Below are positions 4,689 to 14,293 of a stretch of 64,000 nt of DNA, one piece after another. The notes beneath the pieces are model-generated. The model was not told the origin of the DNA. It saw only the letters and a program-made list of their open reading frames with translations, and ran no database searches. Position numbers and translations under genes: made by a program. The stretch is from Paucibacter sp. B2R-40. GTDB lineage: Bacteria > Pseudomonadota > Gammaproteobacteria > Burkholderiales > Burkholderiaceae_C. The stretch's first letter is position 1, and each line of letters opens with the position of its first letter. The DNA is taken from positions 310,001-374,000 of the forward strand of contig NZ_JAJIRP010000002.1 in the NCBI RefSeq assembly GCF_025717555.1. The letters are read 5' to 3'.

Positions 4689-4703
4689 TTTGTCCTAGAC
4701 AAA
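4689..4703. promoter_or_regulatory. Operator 1: perfect palindrome between merR and gpx
   Basis: TTTGTC-CTA-GACAAA, a perfect 6+3+6 inverted repeat lying just upstream of the -35 box of the rightward promoter. It also sits in the leftward control region of the MerR gene. A second copy (14 of 15 bases on the opposite strand) is at 4752-4766. The likely ligand is the adjacent MerR/B12 regulator. Confidence 0.65.
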
Positions 4704-4706
4704 ACA

Positions 4707-4738
4707 TGGACAAGAAACAAATCCTGCCCTAATATAGA
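4707..4738 (+). promoter_or_regulatory. Promoter of the glutathione peroxidase gene
   Basis: -35 TGGACA (4707-4712). A -10 reads either TAATAT (4730-4735, 17-bp spacer) or TATAGA (4733-4738, 20-bp spacer, the long spacing typical of MerR-controlled promoters). It is bracketed by the two operator copies, so a looped or cooperatively bound regulator could shut it off. Confidence 0.5.
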
Positions 4739-4751
4739 TGCATGTCAATGA

Positions 4752-4766
4752 TTTGACTAGGACAAA
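4752..4766. promoter_or_regulatory. Operator 2: second copy overlapping the gpx ribosome binding site
   Basis: TTTGAC-TAG-GACAAA; its reverse complement differs from operator 1 at one base. It ends 2 bp before the peroxidase ATG and includes the AGGA used as Shine-Dalgarno, so a bound repressor would lie downstream of the transcription start and act as a roadblock. Centre-to-centre distance from operator 1 is 63 bp, six helical turns. Confidence 0.65.
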
Positions 4767-5377: not shown

Positions 5378-5574
5378 ATTTCAGCCGAAAAGCATGGCAG
5401 CGGTCGCATCAAGCCTTAACAAAGCATTCAGCGGATCGCCATGTCCAGCGAGTGCTAATGCCATGCCTGTACGGATCAATTCATCTATGGCAAACAAGTT
5501 CAATGCGCTTTGTAAACAATTGCAAACGCAAGAAAATTTTCGCAATTCTTTCGAATTTTCGGTAGTATTGTCAC
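5378..5574. other. Spacer between gpx and the structured RNA, with a candidate promoter
   Basis: No gene seen. The last part is AT-rich and contains TTCGCA (5539-5544) and TAGTAT (5563-5568) 18 bp apart, a moderate sigma-70 match whose start would fall near 5575. That is just before the 11-bp closing stem of the RNA element. An in-frame extension of the downstream amine oxidase frame passes through here but has no family similarity. Confidence 0.4.
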
Positions 5575-5718
5575 ACTTACAGTCGCAAAGTCACTCCCTC
5601 AGTGGAGCAGCAATCTCGAAGCCGTTTTCCTCCTCCTCCCTCCCTCCCTCGTTGGCTTCGAGGCACTTTGCGACTACTTTTATGCCAGGGGCTTGCGCCG
5701 TTAGCGCAAGCCCCTTTT
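5575..5718 (+). ncRNA. Candidate structured RNA with anti-Shine-Dalgarno loop (sRNA or operon leader)
   Basis: The sequence folds into a three-way junction. A closing stem pairs AGTCGCAAAGT (5581-5591) with ACTTTGCGACT (5665-5675), 11 perfect pairs. A short hairpin CACT/AGTG lies at 5592-5604. A 9-bp stem CTCGAAGCC (5615-5623)/GGCTTCGAG (5654-5662) presents a 30-nt loop (5624-5653) that is almost all C and U, with repeated CCTCC units complementary to Shine-Dalgarno sequences. A perfect 11-bp terminator hairpin follows. C/U-rich anti-SD loops are known from alphaproteobacterial stress sRNAs of the CUCCUCCC type; relationship here is only by analogy. Alternatively it is an attenuator leader of the amine oxidase operon. 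Not matched to any named RNA family. Confidence 0.6.
5688..5718 (+). terminator. Perfect intrinsic terminator ending the structured RNA
   Basis: Stem GGGGCTTGCGC (5688-5698)/GCGCAAGCCCC (5704-5714), loop CGTTA, then TTTT. Eleven uninterrupted pairs. It would stop transcription coming from either the gpx promoter or the RNA's own promoter before the amine oxidase gene. Confidence 0.88.
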
Positions 5719-5762
5719 CATTGCCCGGCGCACTGGCCAATTCTTCTGCCGCTTTATTGCGG

Positions 5763-7169
5763 GTGACGGCGCCCTCCAGCGCTGGCCATGCGCAGCACTT
5801 GCTGCCTTTTTTGAGCCAGCTGTGCACGCAACCAGCCAAGGCGCCTGAAGGCAGCCCCAAACGTCGCGTCGCCGTGATCGGCTCCGGCATTGCCGGCTTG
5901 TCAGCGGCCTGGGCGCTGAGTACGCAAGCCACCGTCAGCTTGTTTGAAGCCAATGACTATTTCGGTGGTCACACGCACACCGTCGACATCGAACTGGAAG
6001 GCCAGCGCCACGGCGTTGACACCGGCTTCCTGGTCTTCAACGAACGCACTTATCCCCTGCTGATCGAGCTGTTCAAGCAATTGGGCGTTGACGTCGCCGC
6101 CAGCGAGATGTCGTTCTCGGTACAAGTGCCGGATCAGCAGTTGGAGTGGAGCGGCAGCAATCTGAACGGCGTGTTTGCTCAGCGCGCCAACCTGCTGCGG
6201 CCGGCCTTTTGGGGCATGTTGACCGACCTGCTGCGCTTTAACCGCCTGTGCACCGAGTTGGCCGAGCAAGGTCGTGAAGCCGCCCTGGCCCAACCCATCG
6301 GCGACTTCCTGCAACAGCATGGCTTCGGTCAAGCCTTCAGGAATTGGTATTTGCTGCCCATGGTCGCTTGCATCTGGTCTTGCCCGACCCAGCAAATGCT
6401 GGAGTTTCCGATCTCGACCTTGATACGCTTTTGCCACAACCACGGCCTGCTGCAGGTCGCTAACCGGCCGCAGTGGTACACCGTGCGAGGCGGTGCCAAG
6501 CACTATGTGGAAAAGCTGCTGAGCCGGATCACCGATGCCCGCCTGTCCTGCCCGGTGCAGCAGGTGCGGCGGCTGGCGCAAGGTGGGGTGGAGATCCACA
6601 GCGCTCGCGGCGTCGAAGTCTTCGACGAGGTGGTGATGGCCGGCCACAGCGACCAGTCGCTGCGAATGCTTGCCGAGCCAAGCAAGGCAGAGCAGCAAGT
6701 GCTGGGCGCCATTCCCTACCACCGCAACCGCGCGGTCCTGCATACCGACGCGCAGCTGATGCCGAGCCGGCCGCGCGCCTGGGCGGCTTGGAATTATGAG
6801 CATGGCGGCCAACAAAGCGGCAGCGAGCAGCGCGCCGTGTGCCTGCATTACTGGCTGAACCGCCTGCAGCCGCTGCCTTGGAAGCAGGCGGTGATGGTGT
6901 CGCTCAACCCCGTGCGCGAGCCGGCGCCGGCGCAGGTCCTGGCCGAATTTGATTACGCCCACCCGGTCTTTGATCGCCCGGCCGTTGCCGCGCAAGCGCG
7001 GCTCCCCTTGATTCAGGGCGAGGGCCATGTCTGGTATTGCGGCGCCTGGACACGCTACGGCTTTCACGAAGACGGTCTGCTCTCCGGCCTGAGCGTGGCC
7101 AAGCAATTGCTGGAGCGCTGGACTCAGCAGGCGCCCCAGCAGCCCGCCAGCCCGGCGAGCGCCGCATGA
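5763..7169 (+). CDS. FAD-dependent amine oxidase/desaturase-like protein
   Basis: Flavoprotein with the dinucleotide-binding motif VAVIGSGIAGLSAAWAL and the second motif GGHTHTVD, followed by the substrate domain of the amine oxidase/phytoene desaturase superfamily. In singlet-oxygen and LitR-controlled clusters such proteins occur beside CFA-synthase-like methylases; a fatty-acid desaturation role has been proposed for some. The N-terminus is uncertain: between the terminator at 5718 and the FAD motif (5867) there is no in-frame ATG. GTG 5763 is a tentative choice; TTG 5799 and 5811 are alternatives. An ATG at 5788 is out of frame and would need one extra T in the run at 5807-5812. The stop overlaps the next ATG (7166). 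First gene of the eight-gene run. Confidence 0.85.
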   Translation: MTAPSSAGHAQHLLPFLSQLCTQPAKAPEGSPKRRVAVIGSGIAGLSAAWALSTQATVSLFEANDYFGGHTHTVDIELEGQRHGVDTGFLVFNERTYPLLIELFKQLGVDVAASEMSFSVQVPDQQLEWSGSNLNGVFAQRANLLRPAFWGMLTDLLRFNRLCTELAEQGREAALAQPIGDFLQQHGFGQAFRNWYLLPMVACIWSCPTQQMLEFPISTLIRFCHNHGLLQVANRPQWYTVRGGAKHYVEKLLSRITDARLSCPVQQVRRLAQGGVEIHSARGVEVFDEVVMAGHSDQSLRMLAEPSKAEQQVLGAIPYHRNRAVLHTDAQLMPSRPRAWAAWNYEHGGQQSGSEQRAVCLHYWLNRLQPLPWKQAVMVSLNPVREPAPAQVLAEFDYAHPVFDRPAVAAQARLPLIQGEGHVWYCGAWTRYGFHEDGLLSGLSVAKQLLERWTQQAPQQPASPASAA

Positions 7170-12843: not shown

Positions 12844-13818
12844 TCAGCGCAGCCAACCCTTGCGGCGGAAGTAAATGAAGGGGGCCGCGACCGAGGCCGC
12901 CATCAGACCCAGCGCAAAGGGATAGCCCCAGGCGTAGTCCAGCTCGGGCATGAACTTGAAATTCATACCGTAGATGCTGGCAATCAGCGTTGGCGGCAGC
13001 AGCGCGACGCTGGCCACCGAGAAGATCTTGATGATCTTGTTCTGGTTGATATTGATGAAACCGACGGTCGCGTCCATCAAGAAGTTGATCTTGTCGAACA
13101 AAAAGGCGGTGTGCGAGTCGAGCGAATCGATGTCGCGCAGAATCTGCCGAGATTCCTCGAACTGCTCGGCATTGAGCATGCGGCTGCGCATCATGAAGCT
13201 CAAGGCGCGCCGTGTATCCATCACGTTACGGCGGATGCGCCCGTTCAAATCTTCCTCGCGCGCAATCGCCGACAGCACCTCGCCGGCCTCGGCGTCATTG
13301 ACGTCCTTCTTCAACACGCGGGCGCTGACGGTTTCCAGCTTATCGTAGATGCCTTCCAGGATGTCGGCCGAATATTCGGCGTCGGCGTCATACAGCTTCA
13401 GCAAAACATCCTTGGCGTCTTCGATCAAGGCGGGGATACGCCTTGCGCGCAGACGCAAGAGGCGGAACACCGGCAGGTCTTCGTTGTGAATCGAAAACAG
13501 CACATTGTTGTGAAGGATGAAGGCGACCCGCACATTGCGGGTGTTGGCATCGTCGTCGATCAAGAAGTCGGAGCGGATGTGCAACTCGCCGTTGTCTTCT
13601 TCGTAAAACCGCGCCGACTCTTCCAAATCTTCGTCGACGATGTCCTCGGGGATAACCAAGCCGAAGCGGTCCTTGATCCAGCCTTTTTCCTCGGCGCTGG
13701 GCAACTCCAGATCCACCCATACTGGGCGCGACTGAGCGAGATCCTCGGCGGATTCAATTTCTTCTTGGAAAAGCCCGCCCTTCAGGCGGCCGTTGTCGAG
13801 CGTGAAAACATTCAGCAT
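12844..13818 (-). CDS. corA: CorA-family magnesium/cobalt transporter
   Basis: 324 residues. A soluble alpha/beta N-terminal domain and long coiled stalk helix lead to two C-terminal transmembrane segments separated by the selectivity motif YGMNF. The C-terminus is basic (RRKGWLR), as in CorA pentamers that conduct Mg2+ (and Co2+, Ni2+) down the membrane potential. ATG 13818 is chosen because GGAG stands 7 bp before it and MLNVFTL is the usual start. An in-frame ATG 18 bp upstream is less likely. A long leader with several hairpins precedes it. Confidence 0.93.
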   Translation of the reverse strand: MLNVFTLDNGRLKGGLFQEEIESAEDLAQSRPVWVDLELPSAEEKGWIKDRFGLVIPEDIVDEDLEESARFYEEDNGELHIRSDFLIDDDANTRNVRVAFILHNNVLFSIHNEDLPVFRLLRLRARRIPALIEDAKDVLLKLYDADAEYSADILEGIYDKLETVSARVLKKDVNDAEAGEVLSAIAREEDLNGRIRRNVMDTRRALSFMMRSRMLNAEQFEESRQILRDIDSLDSHTAFLFDKINFLMDATVGFININQNKIIKIFSVASVALLPPTLIASIYGMNFKFMPELDYAWGYPFALGLMAASVAAPFIYFRRKGWLR

Positions 13819-14293
13819 GCAGATCTCCAGCGCCATTGCGCCGCATTGAGTCTGGACGGGCTCGCCGTCCGGGAGTGGATGGGGGGTGGGACCGTCTCAC
13901 TCCGGACAATCGGCTGATTGCTTCAATCAGGGCCGACAGGCGATAGTGTGGACGGTCACCTAGGGTGATCGCTGTCCAAGAAAAGGCTCCGTAGCTGTAA
14001 TAGAGCAATTATCACCGAGCATCAGCAGCCCAACGATCCAAAAGCGCTTGAAATCAAGCATTTGACTGCCAGAAATTGACCCCAACACAAACCCGCAGCG
14101 CTGTCGCCAAGTAAGTAGCTCGGACTATGCCCCTTCCAAATGCCGTAAAGGACTTGTCACGAAAGCTCTTCCGGTGCAAACTGAATTCACCGATCCACTC
14201 CCAAAGCCGAACTCAGCGACCCAGCAATAAATCAACTCGTTCTTTGCACTTTGTTTTTTGTCTTCTCGATTTCCCCTTGTGAAAGGAGGCTTT
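13819..14293. other. Gene-free divergent control region of corA and hpf
   Basis: About 475 bp with no supported gene. The corA-proximal half holds several dyads: GGACGG/CCGTCC (13854-13870), GATTG-CTT-CAATC near 13915-13927, and GGTGATC/GATCACC-like pairs near 13955-13975. If transcribed, these give corA a structured leader. An 84-codon minus-strand frame crosses into corA and has no recognisable similarity. The hpf-proximal end carries AAAGGAGG (14282-14289), a near-perfect Shine-Dalgarno. Confidence 0.45.

Follow-up and report, generated by a model that had tools for sequence, protein, structure and literature searches.

The Cuckoo or CcsR small RNAs of alphaproteobacteria (SmelA075/SmelA099, RS0680a, CcsR1-4) are associated with stress and carry CCUCCUCCC in the loops of hairpins whose stems are variable, and a role in blocking ribosome binding sites has been proposed for them (PMC3927594; PMC10253847). 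In the parts of these two reports drawn on here, these RNAs are described as built of two to four hairpins that all carry the short motif and as present in several copies per genome; an RpoHI/RpoHII promoter drives them, and their transcript includes a DUF1127 gene (PMC3927594; PMC10253847). The RNA described here is like them in that a CCUCCUCCC-type anti-Shine-Dalgarno motif lies in an unpaired loop, but unlike them it has one motif loop of 30 nt within a three-way junction, is single-copy per genome and has a sigma-E-like promoter at many loci. No Pfam match, to DUF1127 or otherwise, was found in three small open reading frames around the RNA in the window, by which we mean the whole 64,000-nucleotide stretch of DNA that was analysed. 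The RNA departs from the Cuckoo family in two features, the several motif hairpins and the several copies, and it resembles no Rfam family.

A second comparison is with the sigma-E-dependent small RNAs of gammaproteobacteria. RybB and MicA, as described in the section of the report used here, are encoded by intergenic genes with conserved flanking genes and with GGAACTTTT/GTCAAA promoter boxes (PMC1804206). The RNA studied here is similar in having a promoter of the GGAACTT-N-TC type at 113 of 193 loci, the window being without it, and in that RpoE scores above cut-off in most host genomes searched (11/15 and 66/80), the window's genome giving no match. RybB, MicA and VrrA-type RNAs repress porin mRNAs, and VrrA reportedly requires sigma-E; the RNA described here differs in that no special complementarity to porin starts was seen, as judged by eye with no control set. 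We know of no resemblance in sequence or fold between it and RybB, MicA or VrrA. From the same order, the Burkholderiales-1 motif is given, in the portion of the source used here, as an ambiguous candidate structured RNA without an Rfam accession (Weinberg 2010; PMC2864571). A literature search covering mainly titles and abstract openings returned no description of the RNA reported here.

We propose that this RNA is probably an undescribed stress regulator, namely a stand-alone, single-copy small RNA of ~110-180 nt whose anti-Shine-Dalgarno loop would block ribosome loading and whose expression would be driven by sigma-E in much of the clade, and we give this reading a probability of roughly 0.6. 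The proposal is based on how the RNA is built and conserved, on its copy number and range, and on its promoter motif and neighbours, from which we infer its transcription, length, control by sigma-E, pairing with mRNA and effect on translation. In this scheme P1, a small variable P2 and P3 would display a 30-nt unpaired C/U loop, which would pair with the purine-rich Shine-Dalgarno sequences of mRNAs and so block the loading of ribosomes. With a sigma-E (RpoE)-type promoter in much of the host clade, chosen mRNAs would be translated less under envelope stress, a mode of action that would be like that of the sigma-E small RNAs of enterobacteria. Transcription may also continue, in many species, into an adjacent membrane-lipid operon, which would make the RNA an operon leader too.

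Structure, conservation and distribution of the RNA

In the window, P1, a small P2 and P3 are arranged round a junction; 3' of them come a T-rich tract and, after it, a second terminator hairpin. The features referred to in the text are as follows, in window coordinates.

5509..5527, + strand: inverted repeat TTTGTAAAC-AA-TTGCAAAC, candidate operator lying 5' of the RNA
5563..5568, + strand: TAGTAT, -10-like element seen by eye, weak candidate promoter of the window's genus
5581..5591, + strand: P1, 5' strand, 11 bp, from folding (helix 1 in the 89 members)
5594..5607, + strand: P2 hairpin, 4 bp with a 6-nt loop in the window, variable among relatives
5608..5614, + strand: junction J2/3, conserved core GNAAT
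5615..5623, + strand: P3, 5' strand, 9 bp, from folding and covariation
5624..5653, + strand: pyrimidine loop of 30 nt in which CCUCC motifs overlap, putative seed for anti-Shine-Dalgarno pairing
5654..5662, + strand: P3, 3' strand, from folding and covariation
5665..5675, + strand: P1, 3' strand, from folding and covariation
5676..5682, + strand: T-rich tract directly 3' of P1, where the RNA may first end, P1 serving as the terminator stem
5687..5718, + strand: second terminator hairpin and short T-run, 12 pairs by scan
5865..7169, + strand: flavin amine oxidase gene, conserved part; in the frame 5394-7169 the similarity to Pfam starts at residue 158, start codon uncertain

The segment 5560-5730 folds at -63.3 kcal/mol, compared with -42.85 +/- 3.7 for shuffled sequences (z -5.5; 0/200 as good), and the core 5575-5685 gives z -4.85, again with none of 200 shuffles as good; the minus strand folds too (z -3.9), since inverted repeats fold on both strands. 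In the fold of the window RNA, P2 is formed by 5594-5597 pairing with 5604-5607. Both the letters and the fold bear out the 11-bp closing stem, 9-bp inner stem and 30-nt pyrimidine loop of the original prediction, which had also described a perfect 11-bp terminator; here the hairpin is present, at 5687-5715 and with 12 pairs by scan, but its T-run is short, at four T, with the first T counted as paired. A 16-mer from the loop occurs once in the 64 kb at up to 2 mismatches (0.01 expected).

When 59 genomes, including the window's own, were searched at the DNA level, 17 had a match, among them 14 of the 18 genomes of the window's genus. Across 17 sequences, the 24 proposed pairs were paired in 96.3% of cells and 17 of them showed changes on both sides; each of these values was reached by 0/500 shuffles, and slid controls paired at 34-50%. 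Further pair types in this alignment did not rise above shuffles (73/500 as high). A covariance model, R1, built from 17 relatives, found the RNA in 210 of the 299 genomes sampled from the window's family, spanning 105 of 141 genera and with one match per genome, and the window's genome (G000) likewise has a single match at E<=10. Carriers include, by record title, Polaromonas, Hydrogenophaga, Rubrivivax, Roseateles and Azohydromonas. Scans of more than 40 genomes used stricter filters and lost some weak matches. Outside the family no match was found among the genomes sampled from the class and the order: the class sample gave 3/369 and the order sample 6/250, all from the window's family, which accounts for 7 of the 250, so that among the matches listed there were 0/243 from other families. 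A second model, R2, built from 89 members, again gave 6/250 in the order sample.

R1 served to find the 89 members, which therefore match it by construction, and their alignment, A2, follows the R1 structure; within it 94.4% of pair cells are paired (slid controls 37-50%) and 21 of the 24 pairs have double changes. By helix, pairing and double changes amount to 96.3% and 9/11 pairs for P1, 86.1% and 4/4 for P2, and 95.5% and 8/9 for P3. Both alignments (17/24 and 21/24 pairs) show the compensatory changes in homologues to which the original prediction had looked for support, and its refuting case, conserved DNA with stems that are not, did not arise. Rfam 15 returned no match at the gathering threshold for the window and 8 divergent loci, in agreement with the earlier suggestion that no betaproteobacterial family with this layout is known to have been described, and at a relaxed E<=10 it gave three matches, all far below threshold.

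Two loci required separate treatment. Locus L084, a Myxococcales MAG, was rejected as a chance resemblance, being the sole locus that R2 failed to match among the 100 (of 118) given. At L084:1772-1792 the same pyrimidine 21-mer occurs within an unrelated GC-rich inverted repeat, which R2 does not match. The contig of L091, titled as a Methylotenera MAG, matches Roseateles puraquae (L081) exactly across the RNA region and is therefore probably misassigned. In the de-duplicated counts below, 12 of the 118 named loci, which repeat model-set loci, were removed together with L084, and L091 and L081 are still counted twice.

Conservation is higher in the unpaired loop than in the stems: in A2 the mean column majority is 0.90 for the loop, 0.78 for P1 and P3, 0.75 for J2/3 and 0.65 for both P2 and the tail, in a member set that favours RNAs with the loop as R1 includes it. 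CCTCC (CCUCC in the RNA) is present in 89/89 loops, at a mean of 4.6 overlapping copies, CCUCCU in 77/89 and CTCCTCCCTCC in 85/89, and pyrimidines make up 95% of the loop on average; loop lengths lie between 21 and 31, with 30 in 58/89. As the 16S rRNA anti-Shine-Dalgarno has CCUCCU at its core, we call the loop anti-Shine-Dalgarno, as did the original prediction for the C/U loop with repeated CCTCC in the window. The junction is conserved as well, the GNAAT core columns having G in 86, A in 85, A in 86 and T in 74 of the 89 members.

A sigma-E-like promoter motif and its relation to RpoE

Upstream of the RNA we scored a strict pattern, GGAAC[TC]-N15-18-TC[ACT]N[AT] at 20-120 nt, which was set after viewing upstream rows with GGAACTT-like boxes and was found at 118 of 205 loci, compared with 1/202 and 0/198 control intervals and ~0.5 expected from shuffles that preserve base composition only. 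After de-duplication the counts are 113/193 loci and 1/190 and 0/187 control intervals. The boxes appear sigma-E-like, matching those reported for rybB and micA in Salmonella, GGAACTTTT and GTCAAA, in the part of that report drawn on here (PMC1804206). At rpoE itself the strict motif was not found upstream: 8 of 11 rpoE loci had none, and in 3/11 it lay inside or downstream of the rpoE match.

RpoE (TIGR02939) was above cut-off in 11/15 and 66/80 of the genomes searched. The relaxed motif is present at 60 of 76 loci of RpoE genomes and at 0/10 of near-complete RpoE-less genomes (Fisher p 1.5e-6, kinship uncorrected), and the strict motif at 51/76 and 0/10 (p 5.2e-5, kinship uncorrected). Two incomplete RpoE-less genomes (G311 and G210) both have the motif, giving 2/12 RpoE-less genomes with it, and 16 of the 76 RpoE genomes are without even the relaxed motif, for which the control intervals were scored with the strict pattern only. 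The ten near-complete RpoE-less genomes come from 6 genera close to the window's, so that few lineages lie behind the correlation and, as they cluster near the window's genus, it may reflect one event. At E<=1e-30 RpoE is absent from the near-complete genomes G000, G004, G010, G024, G068, G076, G151, G167 and G245, and G005 has a match only below cut-off (126.7 bits); the relatives G156, G296 and G117 have RpoE and are without the motif. Classical sigma-E has apparently been lost in the window's clade, and most members of the family that were searched have RpoE.

The window itself has no strict sigma-E motif upstream of the RNA, and its genome gives no RpoE match at E<=1e-30. The window's genus seems to use another promoter, for which TAGTAT is a weak candidate, one that the promoter scan did not report. 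The upstream inverted repeat TTTGTAAAC-AA-TTGCAAAC has its sole match in the whole genome here, at up to 2 mismatches, and with this single occurrence it was rejected as a shared LitR site. It is found exactly in 11 of 297 loci. These belong to six genomes (G000, G001, G003, G005, G006 and G012) among the 14 of the window's genus that have the RNA.

Neighbouring genes and the 3' end

By Pfam, the window has a glutathione peroxidase gene upstream of the RNA and a divergent gene for a MerR/B12-binding_2 protein, which we label LitR, and downstream lie genes for a flavin amine oxidase, DUF1365 and the cyclopropane synthase CMAS. By eye, TTTGTCCTAGACAAA and GACTAGGACAAA occur at 4689-4766, between the divergent litR-like and glutathione peroxidase genes, and are possible sites of the MerR/LitR-like regulator. 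Among loci with enough sequence, glutathione peroxidase is upstream in 43/87 and 39/98, and a LitR-like gene, sought with a single query within a fixed distance, in just 32/87 and 51/98. The photo-oxidative role under a photoreceptor that had been suggested is not supported in that form: besides these last counts, the promoter signal at over half of loci (the window excepted) is sigma-E-like, and 60 of 175 loci are without the lipid operon.

Amine oxidase, DUF1365 or CMAS genes lie on the same strand within 4 kb of the RNA in 51/87 model-set and 67/98 named-set loci with at least 1.5 kb of sequence downstream. In the non-redundant set the RNA precedes this operon in 115 of 175 loci and the operon is absent from 60, a count that may run slightly high as operons and terminators were called with simple scripts and diverged amine oxidases (such as that beside L176) may be missed. 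The RNA therefore persists independently of the operon. The strict promoter motif accompanies it at 31/60 no-operon and 70/114 operon loci (non-redundant), and at 39 of 66 no-operon loci (not de-duplicated) a convergent corA lies within 2.2 kb downstream; in the window corA is at 12844-13836, beyond the operon. Similarity to amine oxidase starts 0-159 nt from the end of the model in all 118 operon loci, and at less than 50 nt in 78 of them, with start codons that may lie further off as some of the queries are stop-to-stop frames. At the 3' end of the RNA, where the original prediction had placed a terminator, a run of at least 3 T starting within 4 nt of P1 is found in 78/89 members, and a simple script called a second terminator hairpin at 34/126 operon loci versus 48/67 no-operon loci, with L084 among the 67.

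The tight spacing at most operon loci suggests that the operon may there be read through the RNA as well, with a possible leader role in addition to that of a small RNA. A broader form of our proposal, which we offer tentatively, is that one small RNA, single-copy in most of the family's sampled genera and driven by sigma-E in many of them, would combine a long tandem anti-Shine-Dalgarno loop, acting on many mRNAs together as a general translation brake during envelope stress, with the function of a leader of the lipid operon.

It is rather unlikely, in our view, that the RNA is instead a cis-acting leader or attenuator of the amine oxidase/DUF1365/CMAS operon. Here P1 and its T-run would end transcription early, the second hairpin would also terminate in some species, and a signal would let the polymerase through or free the ribosome binding site of the operon. 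The same-strand position upstream of the operon at 115 of the non-redundant loci, the T-run after P1 in most members and the short gap, which leaves little room for another promoter, are consistent with such a leader. However, a pure leader should decay once its operon is gone, and the persistence of RNA and loop at the 60 no-operon loci, 31 of them with the promoter motif, counts against it, as does the second terminator hairpin being commoner where the operon is missing. A ligand sensor would, moreover, be expected to conserve a structured pocket, not a 30-nt unpaired pyrimidine loop.

Proposed function and remaining alternatives

The RNA being kept without the operon favours a trans-acting anti-Shine-Dalgarno small RNA, perhaps also an operon leader, and its one copy, its own promoter signal at many loci, its 3' T-run or terminator and its conserved unpaired loop, borne by stems that vary, likewise fit a trans-acting small RNA. 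Such an RNA would work like the Cuckoo/CcsR RNAs and be regulated like the sigma-E small RNAs. Of the trans-acting translation blocker in the original prediction, the structured RNA with its anti-Shine-Dalgarno loop is borne out, and its transcription and block of translation are what we infer from it. Checks for targets gave no support for mRNA pairing. In the window's genome GGAGGAGG-N3-9-ATG has 9 sites (backward control 0), one of which precedes a plausible gene, and 22 porin start regions from 18 of 30 loci gave a median duplex of -7.6 kcal/mol, including one unusable row, with only short Shine-Dalgarno-type pairing to the loop as seen by eye and with no control set.

A role in binding protein seems doubtful to us, and somewhat more so than that of a pure leader. 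The loop or the junction would then bind and titrate a regulatory protein, for instance a cold-shock protein, ribosomal protein S1 or a chaperone like Hfq. The repetition of a short motif in one long unpaired loop, the conserved GNAAT core and the single match per genome could all be accommodated by such a sponge. The repeated motif is, however, the anti-Shine-Dalgarno core, for which base pairing would be the simpler account.

The region had been predicted to be non-coding, and this holds across the family, where no frame is open through the RNA in all 89 members (46, 79 and 60 in the three frames), though in the window itself the frame 5394-7169 is open right across it. A coding reading of the RNA region was rejected on these counts and because lengths are not constant modulo 3. 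That the inverted repeats and pyrimidine tract are no RNA gene, and are kept at the DNA level or because they belong to the amine oxidase coding frame, is very improbable and already strongly opposed: a frame is open in the window and in 79/89 members, but compensatory changes occur on both sides of the stems, lengths differ modulo 3, ATG is present in only 44/89, a promoter motif lies upstream and there are loci without amine oxidase. As a separate observation, the amine oxidase frame in the window is open upstream through the whole RNA (5394-5865), and automatic annotation of its start codon could be misled by this.

If the trans-acting anti-Shine-Dalgarno reading is true, a large clade has an undescribed conserved stress small RNA whose anti-Shine-Dalgarno loop is unusually extended. 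This would allow a direct test of how specificity is kept by an RNA able to pair with almost any ribosome binding site, and a test of whether envelope-stress small RNAs arose independently in betaproteobacteria.
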